A stretch of 34,518 nt of DNA, taken from Clostridia bacterium. GTDB taxonomy: Bacteria; Bacillota; Clostridia; Oscillospirales; CAG-272. Location of the stretch: NCBI GenBank assembly GCA_017398585.1, contig JAFQFS010000169.1, positions 1-34,518 on the forward strand, given 5' to 3'. The notes under the pieces are model-generated. The model saw nothing but the letters and a program-made list of their open reading frames with translations. It did not search any database and was not told where the DNA came from. Below, piece by piece: positions 7-30,533 of this stretch (positions are counted from its first letter, which is position 1; each line of letters begins with the position of its first letter). Made by a program: the position numbers and the translations under genes.

Positions 7-68
7 CCGGGGAGATGCTTTTTGAAAAAAGCACCTCCCCGGACCCCTCCGCAAAAACTTTTATACTG
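7..68 (+). repeat. Hairpin-tail repeat, copy 1
   Basis: Stem 7-42 (CCGGGGAG... with CTCCCCGG, one internal mismatch), tail 43-68 (ACCCCTCCGCAAAAACTTTT then TATACTG). Hairpin-first on plus strand. It faces copy 2 across about 108 nt that hold no gene. Confidence 0.9.
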
Positions 69-176
69 GGATATTTGTGGAGGGGTATTGCAGTTTTTAC
101 GCTTCGGCTTATTTTGTTAGTTCAGCGCACACCATAGTATCATCCGGTTTTGGCTGAATTATGTTTCTATTTTTAT
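69..176. other. Non-coding spacer between repeat copies 1 and 2
   Basis: AT-rich spacer upstream of argH. A weak promoter-like pair (TTGCAG then TATTTT at 16 nt, about 88-115) could serve argH but is below the quality of the other promoters here. No T-box or clear ArgR box was found. Confidence 0.4.
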
Positions 177-236
177 TTTAAAGGTTTTTGAAAGGGGTCC
201 GGGGGAAACTTTTTCCTCAAAAAAGTTTCCCCCCGG
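177..236 (-). repeat. Hairpin-tail repeat, copy 2 (before argH)
   Basis: Tail first (177-198, ending GAAAGGGGT), then stem 199-236 (CCGGGGGAAACTTTTT with AAAAAGTTTCCCCCCGG, one bulged C). 16 nt before the argH ATG. Confidence 0.92.
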
Positions 237-252
237 AAAACAATATTTTATC

Positions 253-1629
253 ATGGCAAAAATGTGGGACGCGCGGTTCTCGAAGGCGGAGAACAGCAGA
301 GTCAATGATTTTAATTCATCGATCTCGTTTGACAGCCGGATGTTCCGGGAAGATATCGAAGGTTCGATGGCACACGCAGCGATGCTCGGTAAATGCGGAA
401 TCATCTCACTCGACGAATCCGCAAAAATTGTAACCGCACTGGCGGAAATCAAAGCAGATCTTGAAGCCGGAAAACTGGCGATCGATCCGGAAGCAGAAGA
501 TATTCATATGTTCGTCGAGGAAGTGCTGACCGCACGCATCGGCGATACCGGCAAGCGGCTGCACACCGCAAGAAGCCGGAACGACCAGGTCGCGCTGGAC
601 ATCCGTCTTTATTTAAAGAAGGAAATCACCGAAATCCGTTCGCTCGTGAAGGGTCTGCTTGACGCCATCGTCACCATCGCGGAAGAAAATACCGACACTG
701 TTATGGCGGGCTACACGCATCTTCAGCGTGCTCAGCCGGTGACCTTCGCGCACTACGTTCTCGCATATGCGCAGATGTTCATCCGCGACGACCTTCGTCT
801 CGCAGATGTATATGACCGTACGAACATCTCCCCGCTCGGCTCCGGTGCGCTGGCTTCCACCACGTATCCGATCGACCGTCACATGGTCGCCGAACTGCTC
901 GGTATGAGCGGCGTCACCGAAAATTCCATGGACGGCGTTTCCGACCGTGACTTCCTTATCGAACTCGTTTTCGCGCTCTCCCTCATCATGATGCACCTGT
1001 CCCGCTTCTCTGAAGAAGTCATCCTGTGGTGTACGAGTGAATTCTCCTTCGTGGAACTCGACGATGCGTTCTCGACCGGCTCCTCCATTATGCCGCAGAA
1101 GAAGAATCCCGACATCGCCGAACTCGTCCGCGGAAAGACCGGACGCGTATACGGTGACCTCACCACCGTTCTCACAATGATGAAGGGCATTCCGCTGGCA
1201 TACAACAAGGATATGCAGGAAGACAAGGAAGCTGCGTTCGATGCAATTGACAACGCGAAGCTCTGCATCGAGCTGTTCACCTCCATGATCGCGACGATGA
1301 CCGTCAAGAAAGAAAAGCTCCGTCAGGCGGCGTCCGGCGGATTCATCAACGCGACCGACTGCGCCGACTACCTCGTCAAGAAGGGACTCCCCTTCCGTGA
1401 TGCCTACCGCGTCAGCGGACGTCTCGTCGCATACTGCATCGAAAACAAGACCGACCTCGAATCGCTCACCCTCGACACCTACAAGACCTTCTCTCCCCTG
1501 TTCGACGAAGGTGTATACGAAGCGGTCAATCTCGAAAACTGCGTAAACGAACGCAAAGTCTACGGCGGTCCCTCCAAGGAATCCGTCCTGCACCAGATCA
1601 AACTCGTAAAAAACTACATCGAAAAATAA
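253..1629 (+). CDS. argH: Argininosuccinate lyase (ArgH)
   Basis: 458 aa, the usual length for the family. The enzyme splits argininosuccinate into arginine and fumarate, the last step of arginine synthesis, in the cytoplasm. Visible family motifs are HTARSRNDQ (residues 104-112), GYTHLQRAQP from residue 153 with the catalytic-type His156, and the fumarase/aspartase superfamily signature GSSIMPQKKNP (276-286), whose serine pair lies in the mobile catalytic loop. It is the first gene of the arg operon in the window. argG is not seen and may lie upstream. The start is placed at the ATG giving MAKMWDARFS, matching the family N-terminus; a second in-frame ATG three codons later is possible. No clear Shine-Dalgarno sequence precedes it: a repeat hairpin (199-236) ends 16 nt before the ATG. 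Identification is very secure, the exact start less so. Confidence 0.97.
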   Translation: MAKMWDARFSKAENSRVNDFNSSISFDSRMFREDIEGSMAHAAMLGKCGIISLDESAKIVTALAEIKADLEAGKLAIDPEAEDIHMFVEEVLTARIGDTGKRLHTARSRNDQVALDIRLYLKKEITEIRSLVKGLLDAIVTIAEENTDTVMAGYTHLQRAQPVTFAHYVLAYAQMFIRDDLRLADVYDRTNISPLGSGALASTTYPIDRHMVAELLGMSGVTENSMDGVSDRDFLIELVFALSLIMMHLSRFSEEVILWCTSEFSFVELDDAFSTGSSIMPQKKNPDIAELVRGKTGRVYGDLTTVLTMMKGIPLAYNKDMQEDKEAAFDAIDNAKLCIELFTSMIATMTVKKEKLRQAASGGFINATDCADYLVKKGLPFRDAYRVSGRLVAYCIENKTDLESLTLDTYKTFSPLFDEGVYEAVNLENCVNERKVYGGPSKESVLHQIKLVKNYIEK

Positions 1630-1647
1630 TATTTCATCCATATAGAT

Positions 1648-1703
1648 TAAAGCTTTTTGAAAGGGGTTCGGGGAAAACTTTTTCGAGAAAAAGTTTTCCC
1701 CGA
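1648..1703 (-). repeat. Hairpin-tail repeat, copy 3 (argH-argC)
   Basis: Tail 1648-1667, then perfect 17-bp stem (1668-1684 with 1687-1703, loop GA). 13 nt before the argC ATG. Confidence 0.93.
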
Positions 1704-1716
1704 GAAACCATATTTT

Positions 1717-2757
1717 ATGAACAAAATCAAGGCCGCTGTTGTCGGCGCTACCGGATACGCAGGTGCGGAACTTGTCCGTCTCCTCGCGCTGCATCCGCAC
1801 GTTGAAATTTCCGGACTGTCCTCTGTTTCCTTCGAAGGCAAGGGGATCGAGGAAGTTTATCCGAACTTCAAGAAAATGAATCTTCCCAAGCTGACCGATG
1901 CCGATACCGCCATCGCCGGTGCGGACGTTGTGTTCGCTTCTCTGCCGCACGGTCTGTCCGAACCGCTTGCCGAACAGTATCTCGCTTCCGGCGCGCTTCT
2001 CGTTGACCTCGGCGCGGACTTCCGTCTCGAATCCGAAGACGAATACAAGGAATGGTACAAAAAACCGTTCGACAAGCCGGAACTCCACGGCGGTGCGGTC
2101 TACGCCCAGCCGGAACTGTTCCGCGAAAACATCAAGGGGGCAAAGATCATCGCGAACCCCGGCTGTTACCCGACAGCCGCGGCTCTCGCGCTGTTCCCCG
2201 CCCTCAAACTCGGCTTCATTGAAGCTGACGGCATCATCATCGACGCAAAATCCGGTGTCACCGGCGCTGGCAGAAGCCTGACTCAGACCACGCACTATCC
2301 GGAAGCAAACGAATCCATCTCCGCGTACAAGGTCGGCGAACACCGCCATACACCCGAGATCGAACAGTCCCTCTCCTACGCGGCCGGTCATCCGATGAAG
2401 GTCCTGTTTGTTCCGCATCTGCTCCCCGTCAACCGCGGCATCGAAGAAACCATCTATGCCAAGCTCAAGGACGGCGTGACCATCGACGAAGTCCGCGAAG
2501 CGTACGTGAAGTTCTACGAAAACGAGCAGTTTGTCCGCATCGAAGCGAAGGGCACGTCCGCGCAGATCCGCAACGTCACCCGCTCGAACTACTGTGACAT
2601 CTCCGTTCACGGCGATATGCGAACCGGTACGCTGATCCTCTGCTCCTGCATTGACAATATGGTAAAGGGTGCAGCCGGTCAGGCGATCCAGAACATGAAC
2701 ATCTACTTCGGTTTTGACGAAGACTGCGGCATCGACATGCTCCCCGCAGGATTTTAA
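1717..2757 (+). CDS. argC: N-acetyl-gamma-glutamyl-phosphate reductase (ArgC)
   Basis: 346 aa, full length. It reduces N-acetylglutamyl phosphate to the semialdehyde with NADPH, the third step of arginine synthesis. The N-terminal Rossmann motif GATGYAG is at residues 10-16. The active-site cysteine lies in NPGCYPTA (Cys150), followed by the conserved GVTGAGRS and HRHTPEIEQ segments. An upstream in-frame extension would be translated from the repeat hairpin and does not resemble ArgC, so I start at the ATG giving MNKIKAAVVGATGYAG. That ATG lies 13 nt after a perfect 17-bp hairpin (1668-1703), again without a visible Shine-Dalgarno sequence. The stop codon is followed almost at once by the argJ leader, suggesting co-transcription. 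Confidence 0.97.
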   Translation: MNKIKAAVVGATGYAGAELVRLLALHPHVEISGLSSVSFEGKGIEEVYPNFKKMNLPKLTDADTAIAGADVVFASLPHGLSEPLAEQYLASGALLVDLGADFRLESEDEYKEWYKKPFDKPELHGGAVYAQPELFRENIKGAKIIANPGCYPTAAALALFPALKLGFIEADGIIIDAKSGVTGAGRSLTQTTHYPEANESISAYKVGEHRHTPEIEQSLSYAAGHPMKVLFVPHLLPVNRGIEETIYAKLKDGVTIDEVREAYVKFYENEQFVRIEAKGTSAQIRNVTRSNYCDISVHGDMRTGTLILCSCIDNMVKGAAGQAIQNMNIYFGFDEDCGIDMLPAGF

Positions 2758-2781
2758 TTGAATTTGAGGTTATCCATCCTT

Positions 2782-4020
2782 ATGAATACTTCCATTTATA
2801 CCGAAATTCCCGGCGGCGTCTGTGCTGCCGAAGGCTTCAAGGCATACGGCATCCATGCCGGCATGCGCAAGAACGCCGCAAAACTCGACCTCGCCATGAT
2901 CGTTGCGGACAATGTCTGCAACGCGGCAGGTGTTTTCACAAGAAACAAAGTCTTCGCGGCTCCGGTCGGTGTGACCCGTGCGCACCTCGCCGACGGCAAG
3001 GCGCAGGCAGTCATCTGCAACTCCGGCAACGCGAATGCCTGCACTCCCGACGGTTACGAAACTGCAAACGCGACCTGCAAGGCTCTCGCGGAAGCACTGA
3101 ACATTAAAGAAAACAACGTCATCGTCGCCTCCACCGGCGTCATCGGCGTTTCTCTGAACACTGAACCGATCATGAAGGGCATCCCCGTTCTGCTCGAAAA
3201 GCTGGAAGCAACTGCGGAAGGCTCCGACAAGGCGGCTCTCGCAATCATGACCACCGATACGAAAAAGAAGGAATTCTCTTTCTCCTTTGAGTGCGGCGGA
3301 AAAACCGTGAAGCTCGGCGGTATCTGCAAGGGTTCCGGTATGATCCACCCGAACATGGGGACAATGCTCTGCTTCCTCACGACCGACTGCGCGATCGCTT
3401 CGGACGTTCTGAACACCGCGCTCCACGCGGCAATCGACGATACCTTCAACATGGTCACCGTCGACGGCGACACCAGCACCAACGACACCGTGACCATCCT
3501 CGCATCCGGCAAAGCGGGCAACGATGAGATCACCGCAGCGGAAGGCGAAGCATATGAAGCGTTCGCAGGTGCACTGAAGCTCCTCTGCTACAAGCTGGCA
3601 ACCTCTATTGCAGCGGACGGCGAAGGCGCAACCAAGCTCCTCATCTGCAATGTCACCGGAGCAAGAAACACCGAAGATGCACGCGTTCTCGCGAAGTCCG
3701 TCATCGCGTCCTCCCTCGTTAAGGCGGCGATGTTCGGAGCAGACGCCAACTGGGGCCGTGTCATCTGTGCGCTCGGCTACTCCGGCGTTGACTTTGATAC
3801 TTCCAAGGTGGACATCTCCTTCTCTTCCGCCAAAGGTACTCTTCCCGTCTGCAAAAACGGCGGCAGCTTTGAGTTCAGCGAAGAATTCGCAAAGGAAGTC
3901 CTCACCGAAAAGACCGTCGAGATCAACTGCGAAATGAACGACGGCGACGCGTCCGCTCAGGCGTACGGCTGTGACCTCAGCTACGAATACGTCCGCATCA
4001 ACGGCGACTACAGAAGCTGA
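2782..4020 (+). CDS. argJ: Bifunctional ornithine acetyltransferase / N-acetylglutamate synthase (ArgJ)
   Basis: 412 aa. ArgJ moves the acetyl group from N-acetylornithine to glutamate; many versions also make N-acetylglutamate from acetyl-CoA. No argA or argE is seen here, so the recycling route fits. The family self-cleaves in front of a threonine nucleophile within KGSGMIHPNMGTML. The candidate is Thr194, preceded by Gly instead of the common Ala. Start: an in-frame TTG lies directly after the argC stop, but the ATG at 2782 follows a TGAGG ribosome binding site at about 12 nt and gives a normal N-terminus (MNTSIYTEIPGGVCAAEGF). The intergenic gap to argC is 24 nt, so the two are almost certainly on one transcript. 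Confidence 0.96.
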   Translation: MNTSIYTEIPGGVCAAEGFKAYGIHAGMRKNAAKLDLAMIVADNVCNAAGVFTRNKVFAAPVGVTRAHLADGKAQAVICNSGNANACTPDGYETANATCKALAEALNIKENNVIVASTGVIGVSLNTEPIMKGIPVLLEKLEATAEGSDKAALAIMTTDTKKKEFSFSFECGGKTVKLGGICKGSGMIHPNMGTMLCFLTTDCAIASDVLNTALHAAIDDTFNMVTVDGDTSTNDTVTILASGKAGNDEITAAEGEAYEAFAGALKLLCYKLATSIAADGEGATKLLICNVTGARNTEDARVLAKSVIASSLVKAAMFGADANWGRVICALGYSGVDFDTSKVDISFSSAKGTLPVCKNGGSFEFSEEFAKEVLTEKTVEINCEMNDGDASAQAYGCDLSYEYVRINGDYRS

Positions 4021-4041
4021 GGAAGGGGAGTTTCTCGGGGA

Positions 4042-4110
4042 AAACTTTTTCGAGAAAAAGTTTCTGAGACTGCACCGCAGTCTCGTCCGGACACCCTTTC
4101 AAAAAGCTTC
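4042..4110 (+). repeat. Hairpin-tail repeat, copy 4, interrupted (after argJ)
   Basis: Ten-bp tip AAACTTTTTC/GAAAAAGTTT (4042-4063). The GC-rich base of the 3' arm is replaced by an extra 8-bp hairpin GAGACTGC/GCAGTCTC (4066-4084), then the usual tail (4091-4110). Confidence 0.82.
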
Positions 4111-4221
4111 AATCTGTATGGTTTGACTGAGAAAGTGCATAGGGTAAGAAAACAAAATTTTTCTGACTGCACTGACGGTTTGGTATACCAAATCTGCACC
4201 ATACTTTGTCCAAAAAATCGT
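4111..4221. other. Non-coding spacer between repeat copies 4 and 5
   Basis: 111 nt without a gene. It contains the perfect 14-bp palindrome TTTGGTATACCAAA (4179-4192), and AGTGCA/TGCACT (4134-4139, 4168-4173). Words GAAAGTGCA and AAATCTGCAC resemble the interior of the 21056-21277 element. Confidence 0.6.
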
Positions 4222-4279
4222 TTAAAAGTTTTTGAAAAGGGGTTCGGGGAGAAACTTTTTTCAAAAAGTTTCTCCCCGA
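4222..4279 (-). repeat. Hairpin-tail repeat, copy 5 (before argB)
   Basis: Tail 4222-4243, perfect 17-bp stem (4244-4260 with 4263-4279, loop TC). Opposite to copy 4. A GGAGG site follows before argB. Confidence 0.93.
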
Positions 4280-4310
4280 TAAATCCCCAATCATAAATCC
4301 GGAGGATTTT

Positions 4311-5180
4311 ATGTCCATCAGAAATGAAGACAAGGCGAGTATTCTGATCGAAGCTCTGCCCTATATACAGAAATACCACGAAAAAACCATCGTCATCAAG
4401 TACGGCGGAAATGCGATGCTCTCCGATGAACTGCGCGACGCGGTTATCAGCGACATCGTTCTGCTCTCCCTGACCGGCATCAACGTCGTTCTCGTCCATG
4501 GCGGCGGTCCCGACATGAATGATCTGCTGAAGAAAATCGGCAAGAAGTCCGAATTCATCAACGGTCTTCGCTACACGGACGAGGAAACCGCGGAAGTCGC
4601 GCTCATGGTCCTCGCCGGCAAGACGAACAAGCAGCTCGTTGACAAGATCGGCAGAACCGGCGGACGCGCCATCGGTCTCTGCGGTCTCGACGGCGGTCTC
4701 ATCAAGGCAACCCGTCACACCGACGCGGAAGGCACCGACTACGGCTTCGTCGGCGACATCGTTTCCATCAACGCAAAAGTTATCGAAGACGTTATCCACC
4801 GCGGTTACATCCCGGTTATCTCCACCGTAGCACATGCGGAAGACGCATCCGGTGTTTACAACATCAACGCAGATACCGCAGCTGCAGAAATTGCCGTTGC
4901 GCTGAAGGCAGAAAACCTCATTCTCCTGACCGACACCGTCGGCGTTCTCCGCGATCCGAAGGATCCTTCTACGCTGATCTCCGAAATCTGTACCGACGAA
5001 GTGGACGGTCTGCGCGCGGAAGGCGTGATCTCCGGCGGCATGATCCCGAAAGTGGAATGCTGCGTATCCGCCGTAAACGGCGGCGTCAAGACCTTCATCA
5101 TCGACGGCCGCATCAAGCACTCCATTCTCATCGAAATGCTGTCCGAAGAAGGTATCGGTACGATGTTTACAAAGGCATAA
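4311..5180 (+). CDS. argB: Acetylglutamate kinase (ArgB)
   Basis: 289 aa. It phosphorylates N-acetylglutamate, the second and usually controlling step of the pathway. Amino-acid-kinase motifs are KYGGNAM (Lys30 onward) and VHGGGPDMN. A roughly 25-residue N-terminal helix (ILIEALPYIQKYHEK) precedes the first strand. In this family such an extension goes with the longer, arginine-inhibited hexameric enzymes, so feedback inhibition by arginine is likely; this is inference. The ATG has a strong GGAGG site 5 nt or so upstream. A repeat hairpin (4244-4279) lies 31 nt before the start, so here, unlike argH, argC and argF, a normal ribosome binding site sits between the hairpin and the gene. argD follows after 9 nt. 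Confidence 0.97.
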   Translation: MSIRNEDKASILIEALPYIQKYHEKTIVIKYGGNAMLSDELRDAVISDIVLLSLTGINVVLVHGGGPDMNDLLKKIGKKSEFINGLRYTDEETAEVALMVLAGKTNKQLVDKIGRTGGRAIGLCGLDGGLIKATRHTDAEGTDYGFVGDIVSINAKVIEDVIHRGYIPVISTVAHAEDASGVYNINADTAAAEIAVALKAENLILLTDTVGVLRDPKDPSTLISEICTDEVDGLRAEGVISGGMIPKVECCVSAVNGGVKTFIIDGRIKHSILIEMLSEEGIGTMFTKA

Positions 5181-5189
5181 GGTGGCTAT

Positions 5190-6362
5190 ATGATTCGTGA
5201 AAATGTAATTCAGCTCGACCATGATAACATCATGGCAACTTACGGCAAGCTCGACCTCGTTCCCGAAGAAGGACACGGAGCGACACTGACCGATAAAAAC
5301 GGCAAATCCTACATCGACTTCACCAGCGGCATCGGCGTCAACATCTTCGGCTGGAACGACGAAGGCTGGAAGAACGCGGTCATCGATCAGGTGAACCGTT
5401 ACCAGCATGTTTCCAACTATTTCTACTGCGACAAGGCGTCCGAACTCGCGTCCATGATCGCGGAAAAGACCGGACTCTGCAACATGTTCTTCGGCAACTC
5501 CGGTGCGGAAGCGAACGAAGGTGCGATCAAACTGGCAAGAAAGTACAGCTTTGACAAATACGGCGAAGGACGCAGCACCATCGTGACGCTGAACAAGTCC
5601 TTCCACGGCCGTACCATAACCACGCTCAAGGCGACCGGCCAGGATGTATTCCATCAGTACTTCTTCCCCTTCACAGAAGGCTTCAAATACTGCGATGCAG
5701 GCGATATCGACGCACTCACCACAGCCTGCACGAAAGATGTCTGTGCGGTCATGCTGGAAGTCGTACAGGGCGAAGGCGGTGTAAATATTCTGTCCGCTGA
5801 CTACCTGAAAGCAGTCGAAGCGCTCTGCAATGACCGCGACATCCTGCTGATCGTGGACGAAGTGCAGACCGGTATCGGCCGCTGCGGCAAGTTCTTCGGC
5901 TACATGAACGCAGGCATCACTCCCGACATCGTCACCACAGCGAAGGGACTCGGCGGCGGTCTCCCGATCGGCACGTTCATCGCCGGCGAAAAGTGCGCGA
6001 AAACCCTCGGCGCAAGCATGCACGGCTCCACGTTCGGTGCAAATCCGGTCTCCTGCGCGGCGGCATGCAACGTCGTCTCCCGCATCACGGACGAATTCCT
6101 CGCGGAAGTCAATGCAAAGGGCGCCTATATCCGCGAAAAGATCGCGGCTCTCGGTTCCGACAAGGTGAAAGAAGTCCGCGGCATCGGCATGATGACCGGA
6201 ATCGCCGTCACTGTTTCTCCGAAGGACATCCTGCACGACGCTTTCGACAACGGTCTTCTCGTCCTCACGGCAGGCTCCGACGTCGTACGTCTCCTCCCCC
6301 CGCTGACGATCACTTATGAAGAAATCGACCGCGGCATTGAAATTCTCGCAAAAGTCCTTTAA
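5190..6362 (+). CDS. argD: Acetylornithine aminotransferase (ArgD)
   Basis: 390 aa, a class III PLP-dependent aminotransferase. It converts N-acetylglutamate semialdehyde to N-acetylornithine with glutamate as amino donor. Visible motifs are the PLP-contact region FFGNSGAEANE, the aspartate-containing LLIVDEVQTGIGR, and the Schiff-base lysine in TTAKGLGGGLPIG (Lys252). An AGGTGG ribosome binding site lies just upstream and only 9 nt separate it from the argB stop, so both are surely co-translated from one mRNA. Class III members also include ornithine and GABA aminotransferases, but the arg context makes ArgD the best call. Confidence 0.96.
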   Translation: MIRENVIQLDHDNIMATYGKLDLVPEEGHGATLTDKNGKSYIDFTSGIGVNIFGWNDEGWKNAVIDQVNRYQHVSNYFYCDKASELASMIAEKTGLCNMFFGNSGAEANEGAIKLARKYSFDKYGEGRSTIVTLNKSFHGRTITTLKATGQDVFHQYFFPFTEGFKYCDAGDIDALTTACTKDVCAVMLEVVQGEGGVNILSADYLKAVEALCNDRDILLIVDEVQTGIGRCGKFFGYMNAGITPDIVTTAKGLGGGLPIGTFIAGEKCAKTLGASMHGSTFGANPVSCAAACNVVSRITDEFLAEVNAKGAYIREKIAALGSDKVKEVRGIGMMTGIAVTVSPKDILHDAFDNGLLVLTAGSDVVRLLPPLTITYEEIDRGIEILAKVL

Positions 6363-6391
6363 ATCTGCACAGACTCCATTAAATATATAGT

Positions 6392-6451
6392 TTAAAGTTT
6401 TTTGAAAAGGGGTTCGGGGAAAAACTTTTTCTCAAAAAAGTTTTTCCCCGA
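6392..6451 (-). repeat. Hairpin-tail repeat, copy 6 (argD-argF)
   Basis: Tail 6392-6413, 17-bp stem within 6414-6451. 11 nt before the argF ATG. Confidence 0.93.
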
Positions 6452-6462
6452 GAATCACAACC

Positions 6463-7374
6463 ATGAAAGATTTTCTCAAAATGTCCGATCTGTCGAAGAA
6501 CGAAATCATCGAACTGCTCGACATCGCCGACAAGCTGAAGTACGAACGCAAGCACGGCATCGAACATCACATTCTCAAGGGTCAGTCCCTCGGTATGATC
6601 TTCCAGAAGTCGTCCACCAGAACCCGTGTTTCCTTTGAGACCGGTATCTACCAGCTCGGCGGTCAGCCGCTGTTCCTCTCTCCCCGTGACCTCCAGATCG
6701 GCCGCGGTGAACCGCTCGAAGACACCGCACGTGTTCTCTCCCGCTACCTCGACGGTATCATGATCCGTACCTTCGCTCAGAAGGAAGTCGAAGACCTTGC
6801 GGACTACTGCTCCTGCCCGGTCATCAACGGTCTGACCGACTACTGCCATCCCTGTCAGGTCATGGCGGACCTTATGACGATCCGTGAAATCAAGGGAGGC
6901 TTCGACGGACTGAAGATGTGCTACATCGGCGACGGCAACAACATGGCGAACTCTCTCATCGTCGGTGGCCTGACCGTCGGCATGAAGGTCGCGATCGCAT
7001 GCCCGAAGAATTATCAGCCGGACGAAAAAGTACTTGACTTTACAAAAAATTATGGTAATATGTATACGATGACCGAAAACGTTCTCGAAGCTGCGGCAGA
7101 CGCCGACGTTCTCTTCACCGACGTATGGGCTTCCATGGGTCAGGAAGAAGAAGCTGCTGAACGTAAGAAGGTATTCACCGGTTATCAGATCAACAACGAG
7201 GTCCTGTCCGTTGCGGCAAAGAACGCAATGGTTCAGCATTGTCTCCCCGCTCACCGCGGCGAAGAAATCACGGCAGACGTCTTCGAAGCTCATGCAGACG
7301 AAATCTTCGAAGAAGCCGAAAACCGTCTCCACGCCCAGAAGGCCATCATGGTCAAATTAATGGCGAAGGCTTGA
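6463..7374 (+). CDS. argF: Ornithine carbamoyltransferase (ArgF)
   Basis: 303 aa. It joins ornithine and carbamoyl phosphate into citrulline. The carbamoyl-phosphate loop SSTRTR is at residues 50-55, a FDGLKMCYIGDGNNMANSL stretch marks the second domain, and the ornithine-binding HCLPAHRGEE has Cys260. The context of argC-J-B-D supports an anabolic role over the catabolic ArcB role. The ATG lies 11 nt after a 17-bp repeat hairpin (6414-6451) and no Shine-Dalgarno sequence is seen between them, as for argH and argC. It closes the arginine operon; another repeat copy in the opposite orientation follows the stop codon. Confidence 0.97.
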   Translation: MKDFLKMSDLSKNEIIELLDIADKLKYERKHGIEHHILKGQSLGMIFQKSSTRTRVSFETGIYQLGGQPLFLSPRDLQIGRGEPLEDTARVLSRYLDGIMIRTFAQKEVEDLADYCSCPVINGLTDYCHPCQVMADLMTIREIKGGFDGLKMCYIGDGNNMANSLIVGGLTVGMKVAIACPKNYQPDEKVLDFTKNYGNMYTMTENVLEAAADADVLFTDVWASMGQEEEAAERKKVFTGYQINNEVLSVAAKNAMVQHCLPAHRGEEITADVFEAHADEIFEEAENRLHAQKAIMVKLMAKA

Positions 7375-7389
7375 GAAAATGGAGTTTAG

Positions 7390-7447
7390 CGGGAAAACCT
7401 TTTTTAAGGAAAAAGGTTTTCCCGAACCCTTTCCCCAAACCTTTTCG
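7390..7447 (+). repeat. Hairpin-tail repeat, copy 7 (after argF)
   Basis: 15-bp stem CGGGAAAACCTTTTT/AAAAAGGTTTTCCCG (7390-7424), tail 7425-7447 with AAACCTTTT, which shares the CC of its own stem. Confidence 0.92.
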
Positions 7448-7529
7448 GGCTGTTACAGTGACAGTGTTGGGTCCGGATTTGGAGTATATGACCTCTTGTT
7501 CTATTATATTGGACGGAGATTTTTCAATT

Positions 7530-8930
7530 ATGCATTGTTTTAAAAACCTCACAGGAGTTGTGACAAAGTTACTTTTGTTAGTGCTGTCCGTGGGGCTTTT
7601 GTTTTTTCTGACCTCCTGTGGACTCACGTTCCGCGATGCCGATGCACTGCCGCACGAAATCCGGCCGCAGACGGAATCAGAAACGGAACCGATGCAGGAT
7701 GTGCCGAAGCATGACTTTTCGCCGCCGGAAACGGAAGAAACGGCAGAGGAACCGGAAACCGGGATCGTTTATCCGGAATTTGAACGTATCGTTCCCGACG
7801 GAGCACAGGAATGGATCGACTGGTACGAAACCGCGTACGGCGAAGGAACGGCGGATAAGGTTCTGCTGGACTCCGACGGAATCCGTACGCTCAACCGGAA
7901 GATGATCGATGCTGCCCCGAATCTTCGGGATATGACCGCCCTTCCCGCCACGATGGCAGGGATAGAAGTCCGGGCAATGATCGAAAAATACAATCTTCCC
8001 GCAGACGAACGCTATGTGGACGGTCACACGCTGATCACGGCAGAGATGCGGGATAATGTCAAACACAACCGAAACCTTGACAGAATCCCGGAAACCGTGG
8101 AACTGAAGCGCGCTGTCATCACCGGACGTTCCGACCTCAAGGGCTTTCCGACCGAAAAGACCTTCCACAGGCACGGCGATCCGCACTACGACGGCATTCA
8201 GGAAACGGAACTGATTTCCGGCTTCCCCGCTGCCGTTCTTCACACCAGCGGCGACGGACATTTTTCGTTCGTTCTGTCGTATTTCTACAGCGGATGGATC
8301 TCCTCGCAGAATGTAGCCTACTGTACCGATGAGGAATACATGCTGTTCGCAGCTCCGCAGGATTACGTGACAGTCGTTGCCAAAACAGTCGAATGCGACG
8401 GGATCCGGTTTGATATGGGTGCGGTTCTTCCGTATGTAACAGAGGACGCGGACAGCTATACCGTTCAGATTCCGAAACGTCACGGCGATACAGGAACGCT
8501 TTTCCTCGAAGAAGCGGAACTCTCCAAAGCAGATGCCGTGCGCGGTTCCCTCGATTACACCATGAAAAATTACTATGCGCAGGCGTTCGCCTATCTCGGT
8601 ACGTATTACGGCTGGGGCGGTGCGGACGGCGGTGTGGACTGTTCGGGTTTCGTCTGTGCGATTTTCCGGACGTTCGGCATCTATCTGCCGCGTAATACCG
8701 GCGAACAGAGCAAGTATGCGGGAACAGTACTGTCGCTTCTGAACGATCCGTCCGGTGTACTTGACACCGTGAATCAGCCGTCGGCAGTGTACCGTCCGGG
8801 GCATGTTATGCTCTACCTCGGAAAAAAGAACGGCACACATTATATCATTCACGCGCCGCAGGGCGGTGAACAGGTCTGCGTGGCGGAACTGAGCATGGCG
8901 AACCTGACCGGTGTGTCGGTGTTCCGGTAA
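7530..8930 (+). CDS. NlpC/P60-family cell-wall peptidase lipoprotein
   Basis: 466 aa. The start chosen is the ATG after a GGAG site at 7515-7518; it opens a lipoprotein signal (hydrophobic residues 13-27, lipobox LTSC, lipidated Cys30). A longer open frame upstream overlaps argF and a repeat and is not credible. After the cysteine comes an acidic, proline-rich linker (about 35-75), then a large middle region with SH3-like strands, then the C-terminal NlpC/P60 domain with DCSGFVC (catalytic Cys371) and GHVMLYLG (His425). By family it should hydrolyse D-gamma-glutamyl-diamino-acid bonds in peptidoglycan stem peptides outside the membrane. The middle domain could direct it to a wall fragment. 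The NlpC/P60 call is firm; substrate is not known. Confidence 0.9.
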   Translation: MHCFKNLTGVVTKLLLLVLSVGLLFFLTSCGLTFRDADALPHEIRPQTESETEPMQDVPKHDFSPPETEETAEEPETGIVYPEFERIVPDGAQEWIDWYETAYGEGTADKVLLDSDGIRTLNRKMIDAAPNLRDMTALPATMAGIEVRAMIEKYNLPADERYVDGHTLITAEMRDNVKHNRNLDRIPETVELKRAVITGRSDLKGFPTEKTFHRHGDPHYDGIQETELISGFPAAVLHTSGDGHFSFVLSYFYSGWISSQNVAYCTDEEYMLFAAPQDYVTVVAKTVECDGIRFDMGAVLPYVTEDADSYTVQIPKRHGDTGTLFLEEAELSKADAVRGSLDYTMKNYYAQAFAYLGTYYGWGGADGGVDCSGFVCAIFRTFGIYLPRNTGEQSKYAGTVLSLLNDPSGVLDTVNQPSAVYRPGHVMLYLGKKNGTHYIIHAPQGGEQVCVAELSMANLTGVSVFR

Positions 8931-8941
8931 TATACGATTTC

Positions 8942-9000
8942 TTGGGGAGAAACTTTTTGAAAAAAGTTTCTCCCCAAACCCCTTTTCAAAAACTTTTAAA
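8942..9000 (+). repeat. Hairpin-tail repeat, copy 8 (after the NlpC/P60 gene)
   Basis: 17-bp stem TTGGGGAGAAACTTTTT with its complement (8942-8977), tail 8978-9000. Confidence 0.93.
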
Positions 9001-9019
9001 CGAATAAGGAAATATAGGG

Positions 9020-9769
9020 ATGGATAAAGCGGAAATATTTATGCTGCCCATGGATGCTCTTACGCCGAGTCAGTTGTATATCAGTGATGAAAAACTGCGC
9101 GCCGTACGGGAATGGTTCGGCGGTGATATCACTAAAATGGATCCGATTCCCGTGAAGCAGCTCGCCGGTCGCCTGCTGATAACGGACGGTCATACACGTG
9201 CAGCAGCGGCATTTCTGGCAGGTCTCCGTGTCCTTCCCTGTATCCGGGACACGGATGACATGGACTGGGCGGCGTATGCGGCGGATATTAATCTGTGTGC
9301 GGAAGAGGGAATCACTTCTATTGAAAAGCTCGCCGGCCGGATCGTTTCAGCAGAAGATTATGACCTCCTCTGGCGGAAACGGGTTGATGCGATGTATGAT
9401 GAATGGTACTATAACGTATTGACGCAGAAAGAGGAAGTGATCTTCTTCACCCGTCAGCCGGTGGAATGCGCTGACTGCGACATCCGTCCGGTTAATTTCG
9501 GTTTCGACGCAGATTATTATCAGCTGTTCCACAACGGTATTCCGGTCACAACAGGATGTATCGAGAAATACTCGTTTGAATTCTGGGAGGCAGCGGACAT
9601 CCGTACCGTGAAGGAGTACCGGAACTACGGTTTCGGGTTCCGGATGACTGCGTTTCTCACGAATCTTATTGTGAAATCCGGAAAAACGGCGACTTGCCGT
9701 ACTCTGCCGGAAAATATCGGAATGAACCGCGTGATTGAAAAATGCAGTTACAAAAAGCTGTATGAGTGA
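9020..9769 (+). CDS. ParB-like nuclease-fold domain fused to a GNAT acetyltransferase domain
   Basis: 249 aa. The N-terminal third has a ParB/Srx-like core: a sequence of the form PIPVKQLAGRLLITDGHTRA, with DGHTRA at residues 56-61, the position of the nucleotide- or DNA-binding signature in ParB-fold proteins. The C-terminal half looks like a GNAT domain: a strand-turn GIPVTTGCIEKYSFEFWEAADIR, then a FGFRMTAFLTNLIV helix, and a final ENIGMNRVIEKCSYKKLYE typical of the GNAT end. AAGGA at 9006-9010 supports the start. It is flanked by a repeat copy upstream and by a strong promoter for the next operon downstream, so it is probably a single-gene unit. Role unknown: possibly modification of a small molecule or nucleic-acid-linked substrate. 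Confidence 0.75.
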   Translation: MDKAEIFMLPMDALTPSQLYISDEKLRAVREWFGGDITKMDPIPVKQLAGRLLITDGHTRAAAAFLAGLRVLPCIRDTDDMDWAAYAADINLCAEEGITSIEKLAGRIVSAEDYDLLWRKRVDAMYDEWYYNVLTQKEEVIFFTRQPVECADCDIRPVNFGFDADYYQLFHNGIPVTTGCIEKYSFEFWEAADIRTVKEYRNYGFGFRMTAFLTNLIVKSGKTATCRTLPENIGMNRVIEKCSYKKLYE

Positions 9770-9777
9770 GGAATAAA

Positions 9778-9806
9778 TTGACATTCCGGTTGGACTGTGC
9801 TATAAT
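9778..9806 (+). promoter_or_regulatory. Promoter of the kinase-APH-Nudix operon
   Basis: TTGACA (9778-9783), exactly 17 nt, TATAAT (9801-9806), with a TGC just before the -10. Consensus vegetative promoter, 45 nt before the first ATG. Confidence 0.92.
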
Positions 9807-9851
9807 TTACTTACAACTTCGACAAAACAAGAACAAAAGGAGAACCGAATC

Positions 9852-11948: not shown

Positions 11949-11980
11949 AAAAAGACAAAGTCTGCACAAACTTTGTCCTC
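11948..11980 (-). terminator. Probable terminator of the Gfo/Idh/MocA gene
   Basis: On the minus strand GACAAAGT/ACTTTGTC forms an 8-bp stem with a short loop, followed by seven T residues. It lies after the repeat copy 9 and just past the Nudix stop. Confidence 0.78.
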
Positions 11981-11988
11981 TTTCCCAG

Positions 11989-12050
11989 TATAAAAGTTTT
12001 TGAAGAGGGGGCGTGGGGAGGAAACATTTTTCAAAAAGTTTCTTCCCCAC
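11989..12050 (-). repeat. Hairpin-tail repeat, copy 9
   Basis: Tail 11989-12012 (with CAGTATAAAAG at its outer edge), stem 12013-12050 with GTGGGGA base, one G-U pair and one bulge. Lies between convergent genes. Confidence 0.88.
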
Positions 12051-12061
12051 CTTTCTCTGTT

Positions 12062-17678: not shown

Positions 17679-17706
17679 ATGTGATTTATCGTTATTCCTC
17701 TTTTGA

Positions 17707-17989: not shown

Positions 17990-18030
17990 TACCTTTTTTC
18001 AATTTTTTTTGAAGAATTTTGAAGTTTTTT

Positions 18031-18089: not shown

Positions 18090-18125
18090 CGAAACAGGCA
18101 TCGTATGGGCTGACCGAAGAGGTGC

Positions 18126-18728: not shown

Positions 18729-18815
18729 AAAAAATCTCCTGTCGGATACTGCGTGATGATACCACAGCATTCCCCGGCAGGAGACGTTTTATTCAATTGC
18801 TTGCGATGTCAGTGC

Positions 18816-19928: not shown

Positions 19929-19965
19929 AATTGCCTCCGTTCGCAGGAATTTTTGTGATATCTAC

Positions 19966-19994
19966 ATTATATCATACTCTGTTCGAAAAGTCAC
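19966..19994 (-). promoter_or_regulatory. Promoter of the CE15-like gene
   Basis: Minus strand: GTGACT (19989-19994, 4 of 6) and TATAAT (19966-19971) with 17 nt spacing. It overlaps back to back with the plus-strand promoter of the Tim44-like gene. Confidence 0.65.
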
Positions 19995-19995
19995 C

Positions 19996-20024
19996 TTGAC
20001 AAATCAAAAAAATTGTGTTATTTT
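19996..20024 (+). promoter_or_regulatory. Promoter of the Tim44-like gene
   Basis: TTGACA (19996-20001), 17 nt, TATTTT (20019-20024), about 33 nt upstream of the start codon. Confidence 0.75.
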
Positions 20025-21010: not shown

Positions 21011-21055
21011 TCCCCGGGTTCATCCGCCTGCTCCGCCGCGAGTAAATAAAGTTTC

Positions 21056-21113
21056 TCGGGAAAACCTTTTTTTCGAAAAAGGTTTTCCCGAACCCTTTCC
21101 AAAAAACTTGAAA
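21056..21113 (+). repeat. Hairpin-tail repeat, copy 12
   Basis: Stem 21056-21091 (TCGGGAAAACCTTTTT type), tail 21092-21113. Faces copy 13 across 106 nt. Confidence 0.92.
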
Positions 21114-21127
21114 CTATTGGAAAATAC

Positions 21128-21206
21128 AAAGAAAGTGCAGATTTGAAGTGACAAAACTGCTGTAAAGCATACAGAAGTTTTGTTGCTCTGAATCTGCACT
21201 TTCTTT
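21128..21206. repeat. 79-nt long palindrome between repeat copies 12 and 13
   Basis: Outer perfect 16-bp arms AAAGAAAGTGCAGATT and AATCTGCACTTTCTTT (21128-21143, 21191-21206), inner arms ACAAAACT/AGTTTTGT and CTGTA/TACAG. Could fold as one long stem and act as a bidirectional terminator between convergent genes; T-rich sequence follows on the plus strand. Confidence 0.88.
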
Positions 21207-21219
21207 ATTTCTCTTTTTC

Positions 21220-21277
21220 GTCCAAAGTTTTTTGGAGGGGGTTTGGGGAACCTTTTGTTCACAAAAGGTTCCCCAAA
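21220..21277 (-). repeat. Hairpin-tail repeat, copy 13
   Basis: Tail 21220-21241, perfect 17-bp stem TTTGGGGAACCTTTTGT with its complement, loop TC (21242-21277). The arm sequence differs from copy 12 on both sides together. Confidence 0.92.
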
Positions 21278-21286
21278 TAATCTTTT

Positions 21287-22822: not shown

Positions 22823-22879
22823 TCGGGGAAAACTTTTTTGAAAAAAAGTTTTCCCCGAGTCCCTTTCAAAAAACTTTAT
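22823..22879 (+). repeat. Hairpin-tail repeat, copy 14 (GH2-ybaK)
   Basis: 17-bp stem (22823-22858), tail 22859-22879. Relative to the minus-strand genes it is tail first, and the hairpin ends 15 nt before the ybaK ATG. Confidence 0.92.
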
Positions 22880-27347: not shown

Positions 27348-28121
27348 TTATCCGATTCCGTTCATTTTATCCACAAATTCCGCGGTTTTTGCCGTCATTT
27401 CGACCCATGCGGGACGGAAGCCGCTTTTTATTGCGTTCCGCACGGAGCGGATGTTTGACCACGCGGCGCAGTAGAAGGGAACTTTTCCGCGTTCGAGAAT
27501 CTCGAGTGCCAGACGGCTTGTAAGCGCGGCCGCAATCCCCCGACGACGATAGGACGGCAGAACATCGATGCCGATCTGCCACATGGTTTCGCAGTCCGCC
27601 GAACAGCCCGCCAGTCCGACAAGTTTCCCACCGTCATACGCGCCGACGCCGAGGACATCGAGGTGCTTCCGGTGTTCGCAAAGCGCGTTGCTCCATTCCG
27701 GAACATACAGGTCCTCAAAATCCTCCGGGTACAGGATCCGCATTTCATACGGACACGGCCTTTCCCGCAGGTTATCGGTATCCGGCAGAAAATACTCCGC
27801 CATAAAACAGATTTTCTGTCCCATCGGCAGAAGCGCGTCGTTCAGAACATGCAGATTCGGCGTTTCGAAACAGTGTTCGACCGGATATTTCGCGATATAC
27901 GCTTCCGCCGGGACACGGTATTCCTCACTGACCGACGCAACAACATTGTTTCCGTAGGACACAAGATTGCACGAAAACGGCAGAGTAAGATACCGTCTCG
28001 CCTCCGGATGCGGTACGGAGCGAACAACCACATGTTCCGTCTTTTCAAAATCCGACGGATCACAGCCGCAGTCAATGGCGGACTGTTCCATCGCAATCCG
28101 CAGAATGTCCCGTTGGGTCAT
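27348..28121 (-). CDS. GNAT-family N-acetyltransferase with extra N-terminal domain
   Basis: 257 aa. The GNAT core is C-terminal: GVGAYDGGKLVGLAGCSAD, then WQIGIDVLPSYRRRGIAAALTSRLA with the RRRGIA acetyl-CoA loop, then FYCAAWSNIRSVRNAIKSGFRPAW. About 120 N-terminal residues form a separate domain, as in a known group of larger clostridial GNATs. Its ATG overlaps the stop of the glycosidase-like gene (TGATG), so the two are translationally coupled. It is the last gene of the 32569-27348 operon. The acceptor is unknown; an acetylated sugar or peptide linked to the glycosidases is possible. Confidence 0.87.
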   Translation of the reverse strand: MTQRDILRIAMEQSAIDCGCDPSDFEKTEHVVVRSVPHPEARRYLTLPFSCNLVSYGNNVVASVSEEYRVPAEAYIAKYPVEHCFETPNLHVLNDALLPMGQKICFMAEYFLPDTDNLRERPCPYEMRILYPEDFEDLYVPEWSNALCEHRKHLDVLGVGAYDGGKLVGLAGCSADCETMWQIGIDVLPSYRRRGIAAALTSRLALEILERGKVPFYCAAWSNIRSVRNAIKSGFRPAWVEMTAKTAEFVDKMNGIG

Positions 28122-30451
28122 CAAAGTTCGATCACGATTCCTTCCTGTTCGTCATGCTTCGGGCAGAGGTATGCCTTGACATCGCAGTCATGCTGATCGG
28201 TATTGAACAGCGCATACACTTCGATTTCCGCTCCGACGAAGTCGGGTGTGATGTCCATGAAGTACGTGTTGTCGTGAGCCTGCAGACGGACGAGGTGTTC
28301 CCATACATTCGACGGGTAGGACGGAGCGCGTTCCGGGAAGCCCGCGAGCTGTCCGTTCACTTTCGCCGCGCAGTATACGCCTTCTCTGCCGTGTTTGCCA
28401 TTGACCGCGATCGCGAGACGTCCGGTACCTTCGGGCTTGACGGTCACTTTCTTCGCAAAGACGGTCTGTTTCTTTGCGTAAGCCGCCATGAGGTTGTTGA
28501 CCTTTGCGGACGAGGGAGTCACGTCTTCGCCGTTCTTCATCACGCGGAACGCGAAGACACGGTCGACCGGTTCCGCCATACGGAAGTAACGGACACGTCC
28601 GCCGCCGTAAACTGCGGTCACACGTCTGCCGTGGTCGATACGGATGTCATGAACGGAATTGCGGACATAGTTCATCGTATAGTCGCCGCCGTCGCGTTCT
28701 TCTGCCAGGGTGACGGTGTTCCATCCGTACAGGTCGGACGAAATTTCCGCAGATGCCGGCGAAGTCTGCGCCTTGATCTGGGCGGTCGACTGTTCGGTCG
28801 TGCTGTAATATTCAATCTCGATCGAGTCGCAGTCCACGGTTTCGCCCAGGTCAACACGCATGCAGCCGCCGTCGATGCGGAGACCGCCTGCGTAATCCTT
28901 CGATTCGCCGTCAAAGAATGTATCGGGATTCTTGTCAAACAGGAATTCGCTGTCGCAGCCGCGCAGACCGTATGTCCGCTGACCAAAGAACGCATCGCGT
29001 GCCGCCTGAACTTCCGGGATCGCAGTCGGACCGGAACGGCGGAGAGAACGCTTTTCGAGAGAGTCATTGTCAAGTGCGAAGCAGGTGGCTTCGTAGAGTG
29101 CTTCCGCATCGGCGGGAACACCGCAGTCTTCCGCAGTACCGAGATACTGTGGGATCGCTTCGGTCTTGTCGAACGCCGCACCGGTATAGATGGGCTTACC
29201 GCTCTTCGTAACGACATCGCCGTCCGCCTGTACGAGCTTGATTTCCTTCGACACACCATCCTTCGAACGGATCACCTGATATGCACAGTTCAGCGGCTCA
29301 TCGTCGCAGACTGTGCTGTCGCAGATCTCGATGAGGTATGCGCGGAACGGTGCCATCGGGATCCCGATGGTTTCGCCGTACTTGAATTCGCCCCTGTACT
29401 GCACATACGGATGACGGATCACGACGGAAACGGATTCGCACGGTTCCAGACCGATCGTTCCGTCGAGGGTGACGGAATAGGTCTGCATATCCCATGTTGC
29501 GTTGCCGGTCGTGAGGAAGCGGCGCTTTCCGTCGCCGCGGACAACGGAGCTTGCCCCCTTGAAATCGGGAAGCTCGATGCCGTTCACGAGAATACCGTTG
29601 TATCTGCGGTGGAGGTTGTAAATGTTTGCGAGAAGGGGAAGTTCATCGTCGCGCATGAGCCACGGATTGCCGTAGATTTCGGGCGCGAGGATCAGCGAAC
29701 GGCTGAACGCCTGATAGATGAGATCGTCTTCGAAATAGTCGATACAAGAGGAAATGCAGACGCCGTGGTCTTCGGTCAGTCTCTGCAGTCCGGGGATGTG
29801 TCCGCGGCTGAACGTAAATGCACGGTTGTGCATTGCGGTGACCGGGTTGGCAATGTGAACGTCAACGTAGGTTTCCGTGCCGCCCCAGAGGAACGTGGTC
29901 GCGTAGATTTCCGCTTCGCCGAGGTTGTTGCGGTGGTTGAGCAGGACGAGGTCGGGAACATATTTCCGGCATTCCTGAATCGTTTCCGCAAATACAGCAC
30001 GCTTTTCCGCGCGGAGGCTGCCGCATACGGTGTCAAACTTGAAGAGAGCGAAGCCGTGATCACGGCAAAGGGAGACGATCAGTTCTCTGCGTGCCGCTTC
30101 TTCTTCGGGAGTATCGCCGAAGCCGTCCGCGCCGCCCCAGACGCCCAGACGAATCCCAATTTCCGCCGCCGCTTTTGCGCAGGGACCGTAACCGTTCGGG
30201 TACTGCTTCTGCAGTTTGCCCTGCGTGAAGTCCGCATAGGTGCCGCTTGCGCCGTCGAGGTTGCCGGCATCCCATGCGTAAATGTCGAGCTGCATGTCGT
30301 ATCTGTCACGCAGGTACTTGAAGAATTCGAGATTGATGAGGGTCTGTTCTTCGGTCGCGCCCTCGTTGGTATTATTGATCCATGAAAAATACTGCGGATG
30401 CGACGGTGTCTTTTCGTCGGCACCGGATGTGAATACAGTCTTTTCAGCCAT
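28121..30451 (-). CDS. Putative TIM-barrel glycoside hydrolase, clan GH-D-like, with C-terminal discoidin-like domain
   Basis: 776 aa, no signal peptide. The N-terminal half has a barrel pattern like alpha-galactosidases: LDIYAWDAGNLDG, then GIRLGVWGGADGFG, and GFALFKFDTVCG, where Asp140 (in Lys138-Phe-Asp140) sits where clan GH-D enzymes carry the nucleophile. DLVLLNHRNNLGEAEIYA and an all-beta domain follow. The C-terminal part (MRVDLGETVDCDSIEIEYYS) looks like an F5/8 type C sugar-binding module. I am not sure of the family; a GH36-related or unassigned family is equally possible. AAGGAG lies before the start. A repeat (30474-30533) separates it from the GH106-like gene, and the GNAT start overlaps its stop. 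Confidence 0.65.
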   Translation of the reverse strand: MAEKTVFTSGADEKTPSHPQYFSWINNTNEGATEEQTLINLEFFKYLRDRYDMQLDIYAWDAGNLDGASGTYADFTQGKLQKQYPNGYGPCAKAAAEIGIRLGVWGGADGFGDTPEEEAARRELIVSLCRDHGFALFKFDTVCGSLRAEKRAVFAETIQECRKYVPDLVLLNHRNNLGEAEIYATTFLWGGTETYVDVHIANPVTAMHNRAFTFSRGHIPGLQRLTEDHGVCISSCIDYFEDDLIYQAFSRSLILAPEIYGNPWLMRDDELPLLANIYNLHRRYNGILVNGIELPDFKGASSVVRGDGKRRFLTTGNATWDMQTYSVTLDGTIGLEPCESVSVVIRHPYVQYRGEFKYGETIGIPMAPFRAYLIEICDSTVCDDEPLNCAYQVIRSKDGVSKEIKLVQADGDVVTKSGKPIYTGAAFDKTEAIPQYLGTAEDCGVPADAEALYEATCFALDNDSLEKRSLRRSGPTAIPEVQAARDAFFGQRTYGLRGCDSEFLFDKNPDTFFDGESKDYAGGLRIDGGCMRVDLGETVDCDSIEIEYYSTTEQSTAQIKAQTSPASAEISSDLYGWNTVTLAEERDGGDYTMNYVRNSVHDIRIDHGRRVTAVYGGGRVRYFRMAEPVDRVFAFRVMKNGEDVTPSSAKVNNLMAAYAKKQTVFAKKVTVKPEGTGRLAIAVNGKHGREGVYCAAKVNGQLAGFPERAPSYPSNVWEHLVRLQAHDNTYFMDITPDFVGAEIEVYALFNTDQHDCDVKAYLCPKHDEQEGIVIEL

Positions 30452-30473
30452 TTTTATCTCCTTATGGGATTTT

Positions 30474-30533
30474 TCGGGGGAAACCTTTTTGAGGAAAAGG
30501 TTTCCCCCGAACCCCTTTCCCAAACCTTTTTAA
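30474..30533 (+). repeat. Hairpin-tail repeat, copy 15 (between the two glycosidase genes)
   Basis: 16-bp stem TCGGGGGAAACCTTTT with its complement (30474-30510), tail 30511-30533 with AAACCTTTTT, again sharing the CC variant with the stem. An AAGGAG site follows before the minus-strand gene start. Confidence 0.92.

Follow-up and report, generated by a model that had tools for sequence, protein, structure and literature searches.

A mobile intergenic repeat of Clostridia whose tail covaries with both hairpin arms, possibly as an alternate-strand DNA triplex

The 34,518-nucleotide (nt) contig JAFQFS010000169.1 of a Clostridia bacterium from the gut (GTDB lineage Bacteria; Bacillota; Clostridia; Oscillospirales; CAG-272; GenBank assembly GCA_017398585.1), referred to at its full length as the window, carries 15 copies of an intergenic repeat composed of a hairpin, a short turn and a tail. 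The repeats are probably mobile elements, present singly or as tail-to-tail pairs, whose core would form a triple-helical hairpin from a single DNA strand. The tail behaves as a third strand that varies together with the two arms, and the mirror relation between arm and tail, as read from the sequences, is the geometry of an intramolecular triple helix, unlike that of Watson–Crick pairing. An earlier note on the window had proposed a selected RNA or DNA structure, and this part of it is supported by a third strand that covaries in six genomes and by polymorphic sites among sister species.

In the same reading direction, the tail complements the 5′ arm, which makes it the mirror image of the 3′ arm. 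It is usually 1 nt shorter than the arm, and a C or CC at the purine–pyrimidine switch stays C. Across a listing of 99 copies (the 15 of the window and 84 of 165 match rows, those omitted being mostly second-strand duplicates of the same hairpin), arm/tail pairs include GAGAGGAACC/CTCTCCTCC, GGGGAAACC/CCCCTTCC, GGGGAAAAC/CCCCTTTC, GGGGAAAAAC/CCCCTTTTC, GGAGAGGACC/CCTCTCTCC and GAGGGGAACC/CTCCCCTCC. The tail had earlier been recorded as asymmetric; it is present as described, but its covariation with the arm had been missed.

Agreement was measured as the edit distance between the tail and the parallel complement of the arm, with a switch C scored as C, a rule derived from the source genome itself. 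For 189 of 250 hairpins of this genome (59 had no parsable tail and two more were lost at the test step), the distance was 1.386, compared with 2.046 ± 0.042 after shuffling (0/2000 shuffles); for the 69 distinct triples it was 1.783, compared with 2.635 (0/2000). The antiparallel control with the same C rule gave 6.116 against 6.167 (121/2000), and Watson–Crick pairing of the tail to the 5′ arm as the main relation was unsupported by the antiparallel controls. The count of switch C residues agrees between arm and tail in 164 of the 189 copies.

The relation recurs in six test genomes, which represent four genera and two families: the source genome, its congeners G004 and G022, G141 and G180 from other genera of the same family, and G206 from another family. 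Shuffle z-scores computed separately were −15.2 for the source genome (n = 157), −9.2 for G004 (57), −5.8 for G022 (36), −5.5 for G206 (18), −6.0 for G180 (14) and −6.4 for G141 (26), each at 0/1000, and dropping the C rule left 0/1000 in each of the six. With the tail length also fixed, the counts out of 1000 were 0 for the source genome, 7 for G004, 23 for G022, 53 for G206, 16 for G180 and 1 for G141. The arm repertoires of G141, G180 and G206 are quite different (GGGAAGGAAAC with CCCTTCTTTC, GGGGAGGAAAC with CCCCTCCTTC, GGGGAACC with CCCCTCC, and GGGGGGACCC with CCCCCTCCC). In base-tract triads, A is answered by T in 71–85% of cases in five genomes (54–68% when shuffled) and in 44% in G141 (21% when shuffled), in a fixed-offset table that is diluted by the 1-nt shortening of the tail. 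The triplet rules for three same-strand stretches of an intrastrand triplex are obeyed, the exceptions being the switch C and some G141 copies.

The turn from the 3′ arm to the tail is exactly 3 nt in 263 of 308 parsed copies from the six genomes, with a parser that was open to other lengths as well. Another 24 copies carry, in place of the turn, a second stem-loop (17 distinct stems) followed by the tail, whose presence the search demanded. Above the switch, the arm carries a T-run and the tail an A-run, with correlated run lengths (r of 0.43–0.84 in the six genomes), and in two relatives a C within the arm T-run is matched by a G in the tail: G119, a genome of another family (arm CTTTC, tail CAAAG), and G013 (GCTTTCTTGAAAGAAAGC / GGCAAAGAACTTTC). 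Apex loop and next tail base vary together too: an apex GG is accompanied by tail CC in 45 of 58 copies, a CGAG-type apex with GC in 16 of 16, and a single apex G with C in 88 of 96. The tail C is missing from 3 of 18 copies without an apex G, compared with 4 of 96 copies with one G.

We infer that the covariation reflects a triplex and that this triplex forms in DNA. In the proposed fold, the two arms would be Watson–Crick paired and the 3-nt turn would lay the tail into the major groove, where it would run alongside the purine tract of the lower stem, cross the groove and continue alongside the upper-stem purine (A) tract, giving an alternate-strand triplex closed by the contact between loop and tail. 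On the purine-tail strand, in which the tail comes first, the third strand would form G.G-C and A.A-T triads where it runs antiparallel to the 5′ arm; from the switch (G.G-C) upwards (T.A-T), it would run parallel to the 3′ arm. The dominant triads predicted on that strand (G.G-C, A.A-T and T.A-T) are all conventional, which favours DNA and the purine-tail strand. The structure may form on a strand exposed during replication or transcription, and it may be kept since mobilisation or retention of the element needs it; once inserted, the element would be a structural block at gene ends. We regard as roughly evenly balanced the fuller proposition that the selected structure of this repeat class, present in several clostridial families, is a natural alternate-strand DNA triplex that passes from purine motif to pyrimidine motif within one fold, is locked by loop and tail and undergoes three-way compensatory evolution, giving comparative-genomic evidence of selection in cells.

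Several observations weigh against this interpretation. Part of the arm–tail signal is length coupling, and its order-specific part is weakest in G206 (53/1000). With tail length fixed, low counts are also obtained for the antiparallel control in G004 (20/1000) and G206 (76/1000), the counts elsewhere being 165 for the source genome, 846 for G022, 777 for G180 and 135 for G141. A reverse-complement control is mildly non-random in all six genomes (z of −2.0 to −4.2), and a similar tendency is seen for seven loose hits from 857 kb of other Clostridia (z of −2.5, 19/1000). An alignment scan over all relations gave a less clear picture than the lower-stem test: five of six genomes have the parallel relation in first place (in G004 only at the stricter cut-off, the direct relation leading there at the looser one, 43 versus 36), and direct and reverse relations stand well above background in the source genome. 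The earlier note had asked for covariation beyond phylogeny; the covariation does exceed shuffles, and these treat copies as independent, taking no account of relatedness. Mismatched stems as an indicator of the folding strand gave 11 versus 17, with 15 ties; the pyrimidine-tail strand needs an unconventional switch triad, C over C-G; and several G141 copies (arm ..GC, tail ..GC) fit neither strand's code at the switch. Some copies, such as that at 18031, match the arm–tail rule poorly, and CTTT after the tail A-run fits no part of the triplex model. For the element as such, no enzyme, exact ends or consistent target-site duplication was found (duplications judged by eye). By the parallel rule used for the tail, the CTTT at the tail end is similar to the loop and to the upper part of the 3′ arm.

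A covariance model was built from the 14 regular window copies, the irregular copy at 4034 being excluded. In the source genome it gave at least 150 matches, all of the best 150 scored among 2992 candidates being matches, which excludes the possibility, raised by the earlier note, that no additional copies lie elsewhere. A strict foot-and-tail pattern matched 176 times (some places being counted twice), compared with 0 for the reversed pattern; within sampled stretches, 65 such matches correspond to 57 places. The density first noted, one copy per 2.3 kb, holds in the window and is lower in the other sampled stretches, with 195 family-type hairpins in 786 kb that were hand-chosen and non-random. 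Among 24 relatives of the same genus, at E ≤ 0.001, G004 and G022 have at least 129 matches each, G008 has 81, G017 48 and G023 46, thirteen have 1–11 and six have none; the repeat class is patchy within the genus. Across the order, 18 of 197 genomes, the source genome included, matched at E ≤ 1e-5 under strict filters, and the strict pattern occurs in 7 of the 197, again including the source genome, with a match in G209 that lacks a hairpin. Among the best 150 scored per genome, matches at E ≤ 1 number 108 in G141, 138 in G180 and 148 in G206. Viral contigs searched with one exact consensus pattern gave no matches.

Comparison of orthologous sites, which the earlier note had suggested, revealed presence/absence polymorphism among sister species. 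Over the sampled stretches, 47 comparisons of the source genome with a sister comprise 26 sites with a hairpin, 17 short sites (median 20 nt) and 4 others. By eye, 13 of the short sites are clean empty sites, two rows come from a single pair that collapsed into a chimeric hairpin, and the other two miss one pair member. (In the analysis as a whole, loci L326–L337 were judged by eye only, and L215–L218 were left out.) The gap between argJ and argB measures 290 nt with its pair in the window and 21 and 22 nt in G004 and G022, whose ArgJ proteins are 90–91% identical to that of the window. Copies fill the argH–argC and argD–argF gaps in the window and in G004, and G022 has both gaps empty; of these three genomes, only G004 has a copy in argC–argJ. 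ATTGAAT at this last site is a single target-duplication candidate. In G119, tail-to-tail composites of about 300 bp are 87–99% identical pairwise (seven aligned, several matches lying at contig ends); in one of them (L322, about 11782–12090), the outer ends are unlike those of other copies yet mutually complementary. At L309 2542–2594 of G022, a deletion has seemingly reduced a pair to a single chimeric hairpin, with its 5′ arm taken from the left member and its 3′ arm from the right; Holder et al. (2015, PMC4666352) describe inverted pairs in which a partial deletion spares a hairpin. At two sites judged by eye (window 6451–6462 and L054 near 19160), the hairpin lies just upstream of a start codon and the Shine–Dalgarno-like sequence of the sister empty site is gone. 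Some of the same arginine-operon gaps hold different inserts of 340–530 nt in G015 and G013 (L205 9561–9972 and 11129–11662; L207 2810–3153 and 4409–4793), of which at least three have a hairpin of their own and a AAAAAACTTT-like tail, possibly a related larger element. The ArgJ homologue at L200 (G011) carries an in-frame TAG.

Where both genomes are occupied, arm and tail can be followed through time. At argH–argC, the loop is CTCG with tail AGC in the window and CAGG with tail ACC in G004 (apex TCAGG, tail AAAAACCTTTT); at argD–argF, the foot pair is C-G in window copy 6 and T-A in its G004 orthologue. Among 20 comparable orthologous copies, 16 differ in arm or tail, and in these the copy's own combination beats the swapped one in 8, is worse in 1 and ties in 7. 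These joint changes, and the separate replication of the signal in six genomes with different arm repertoires, make it highly improbable that arm compensation is only quasipalindrome correction and tail similarity only a shared subfamily history, although the copies are related and template switching can repair quasipalindromes. Templated mutation yields inverted or direct repeats, not mirror repeats, and we know of no templated process that makes the latter.

The short or empty sister sites and the near-identical G119 composites bear out the mobility in the earlier proposal of a palindromic element spread like repetitive extragenic palindromic (REP) sequences or miniature inverted-repeat transposable elements (MITEs). 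Its REP form fared less well: the REP-associated tyrosine transposase (RAYT) for which a search had been proposed was not found, Y1/RAYT (PF01797) giving 0 matches in the source genome, a metagenome-assembled genome (MAG) that is 74% complete, while the same search was positive in 6 of 14 control genomes. This absence bears on a further reading without a triplex, in which a protein or a replication or transposition complex, such as a single-strand transposase, reads arm and tail. The copies are mobile, and single-strand transposases such as that of IS608 use hairpins and non-canonical triads; still, a protein specific for one fixed motif would not follow arms as diverse as GAGAGG, GGAGAGG, GGGAAGGAAA and GGGGAAAA with matching tails, and we consider this reading quite unlikely.

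Placement relative to genes was taken from a home-made gene finder (671 genes). Of the 195 source-genome hairpins, 3 overlap a gene prediction and 14 are located at the ends of stretches. Among intergenic regions of at least 60 nt, 41 and 45% of tandem, 57% of convergent and 13% of divergent regions are occupied. The hairpin side lies at a median of 11 nt from a stop codon (n = 89) and 16 nt from a start codon (n = 49), the tail side at 158 and 173 nt, respectively; close neighbours in the six genomes are tail-to-tail in 41 of 44 cases and never head-to-head. The proximity to stop codons (genome medians of 11.5 to 27 nt), the avoidance of divergent regions (13% against 41–57%) and the lean of single copies between co-directional genes (82 with the hairpin side towards the gene end, 61 opposite) would suit an RNA fold, in which a hairpin and pyrimidine tail a short distance past stop codons form a U.A-U / C+.G-C triple helix whose role, as in a 3′ stability element, is to shield the mRNA or to end it. 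We hold this to be unlikely: the lean is weak, either orientation being common, the arginine-operon copies occur in both orientations, the tail strand has no special G–U tolerance (A.C/C.A 29 and G.T/T.G 17 of 72 stem mismatches), and a tail A over U-A or C over C-G is non-standard as an RNA triad. A constraint acting on DNA rather than RNA is argued from the two-way orientation, the lack of G–U preference of stems on the tail strand and the conventional purine-tail triads.

Copies also sit after stops and in convergent regions as ordinary bidirectional intrinsic terminators would, and canonical terminators are fewer at element-bearing gene ends (convergent 42/110 versus 80/146, tandem 26/178 versus 92/359). 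This depletion is suggestive, but the comparison is confounded by region length, and G004 convergent ends do not differ (9/20 versus 17/38). In a scan of window positions 1–20000, a hairpin followed by a U-tract was found in only 2 of 11 copies via their own hairpin, both on the minus strand, while a third hit overlaps copy 2; terminator-like sites overall show no excess (19, compared with 23.1 in shuffles). As terminators would also leave the arm–tail covariation unexplained, we consider this explanation very improbable.

All 15 window copies were recovered where the earlier note had placed them, and all are intergenic, as it had held. The copy at 30473 overlaps an extended open reading frame of the gene finder; an ATG preceded by AAGGAG starts the gene past the copy. 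Read hairpin then tail, nine copies lie on the plus strand (7, 4034, 7390, 8942, 14838, 18031, 21056, 22823 and 30473) and six on the minus strand (199, 1668, 4244, 6414, 12014 and 21242):
Copy 1, 7–62, plus strand: hairpin 7–42, tail 43–62; arm GGGGAGATGC, tail CCCCTCCGC.
Copy 2, 180–235, minus strand: hairpin 199–235, tail 180–198; tail-to-tail pair with copy 1 (unit 2–240).
Copy 3, 1649–1703, minus strand: between argH and argC; apex CTCG, tail AAAAAGCTTT.
Copy 4, 4034–4109, plus strand: irregular; a second stem-loop (GAGACTG..CAGTCTC) interrupts the 3′ arm and turn; tail present.
Copy 5, 4224–4279, minus strand: tail-to-tail pair with copy 4 (unit 4029–4284), between argJ and argB.
Copy 6, 6394–6451, minus strand: between argD and argF; foot pair C-G.
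Copy 7, 7390–7445, plus strand: after argF; arm GGGAAAACC, tail CCCTTTCC..; apex AAGG, tail CC.
Copy 8, 8942–8997, plus strand: arm GGGGAGAAAC, tail CCCCTTTTC.
Copy 9, 11992–12049, minus strand: convergent region; arm GGGGAAGAAAC, tail CCCCCTCTTC.
Copy 10, 14838–14893, plus strand: apex CGAG, tail AAAAAGCTTT.
Copy 11, 18031–18083, plus strand: divergent; tail CCCCTAAAAAAACTTTTT, a poor fit.
Copy 12, 21056–21109, plus strand: arm CGGGAAAACC, tail CCCTTTCC.
Copy 13, 21224–21277, minus strand: tail-to-tail pair with copy 12 (unit 21051–21282; an inverted repeat with 97-nt arms, 71% complementary).
Copy 14, 22823–22877, plus strand: arm GGGGAAAAC, tail TCCCTTTC; tail of the G004 orthologue CCCCTTTC.
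Copy 15, 30473–30531, plus strand: arm GGGGGAAACC, tail CCCCTTTCCC; apex GAGG, tail CC.

The 14 regular copies score 51–85 bits against the covariance model, a match by construction as the model was built from them. The arm-to-arm compensation claimed at the outset is borne out in these copies: cells changed on both sides number 31, compared with 10.5 ± 2.9 in shuffles (0/500), the covariation score is 0.421, compared with 0.208 ± 0.024 (0/500), and the signal peaks at zero slide. Two coarser measures are weaker, with 9 pairs showing a double change (6.4 shuffled, 20/500) and 18 extra pair types (15.6 shuffled, 49/500). No Rfam family matches the repeats at its gathering score, the window giving tRNAs only; sub-threshold microRNA matches in that scan were dismissed as noise. 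The five tRNA genes form two near-repeat cassettes at 16053–16208 and 17607–17898, with one tRNA present three times and another twice, apparently a local duplication. In positions 1–20000, four perfect TTGACA-17-TATAAT promoters, all with a TG preceding the −10 box, were found at 9778–9806, 13241–13269, 16279–16251 and 17989–17961.

The repeat resembles REP/BIME elements with RAYT in being a short palindromic intergenic unit, single or in inverted pairs, and differs in that no Y1 transposase was found in the 74%-complete MAG; to our knowledge, a mirror-covarying tail is not a REP feature. With MITEs it shares many non-coding units, insertion at sites that are empty in relatives (17 of 47 short) and inverted-repeat organisation, both of the imperfect pairs and of the ~300-bp G119 composites, which are 87–99% identical. 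It differs in that no transposase, consistent target duplication or family was assigned to it, and single asymmetric half-elements also occupy sites. The homopyrimidine mirror repeat across the turn (TTTTCCCC-GAA-CCCCTTTC) recalls H-DNA; however, H-DNA needs no hairpin, whereas here the arms compensate and the mirror reaches into mixed purine/pyrimidine sequence.

The closest known systems, going by the text of Holder et al. (2015, PMC4666352), are the PIT, BoxC and TM(ECO) intrastrand-triplex repeats, which are likewise intergenic bacterial repeats, draw hairpin and third strand from one DNA strand, occur in inverted pairs and are patchy between relatives; TM(ECO) also has a 3-nt turn between two purine strands. 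As described there (PMC4666352), TM(ECO) is one G-rich consensus with a 3–6 nt loop and up to 143 copies per genome, AAT, GGC and TAT are listed as type-1 triplets, and purine-motif triplexes are held to be impossible in RNA. In contrast, the arms of the Clostridia repeat vary widely, its lower triplex would be capped by a T/A hairpin that contributes a second triplex segment, of the alternate type, and loop–tail and three-strand covariation are present. The ITxF search in that work was restricted to 1–6 nt loops (PMC4666352), and the cap is larger, the second loop being the whole upper hairpin (>6 nt). The TM(ECO)/BoxC pattern CCCTCNCCC-N3-6-GGGNGAGGG-N3-GGGNGAGGG, searched in exact form where the paper also allows one mismatch, matched 0 of 337 loci and nothing in the window. 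As judged from sequence and the published description, the repeat would work like an intrastrand triplex repeat and lies outside the TM(ECO) family, from which it is new in its longer predicted alternate-strand fold, its diverse sequences and its three-strand covariation. The words 'Clostridi' and 'Firmicutes' are absent from the main text of Holder et al. (PMC4666352), and no report of the Clostridia repeat was found in searches confined to open-licence literature.

If the proposed fold is true, these repeats would provide rare evolutionary evidence of natural selection for a triple helix; the relevance of DNA triplexes in cells has so far rested mainly on chemistry and on footprints of a handful of motifs. 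A covariance model that treats the repeats as two-stranded overlooks one strand, and the many sequence-diverse natural variants within each genome would serve as a covariation readout of the third. The repeats would thereby supply a ready triplet code for oligonucleotide tests, together with a mobile element whose structure is seemingly kept.

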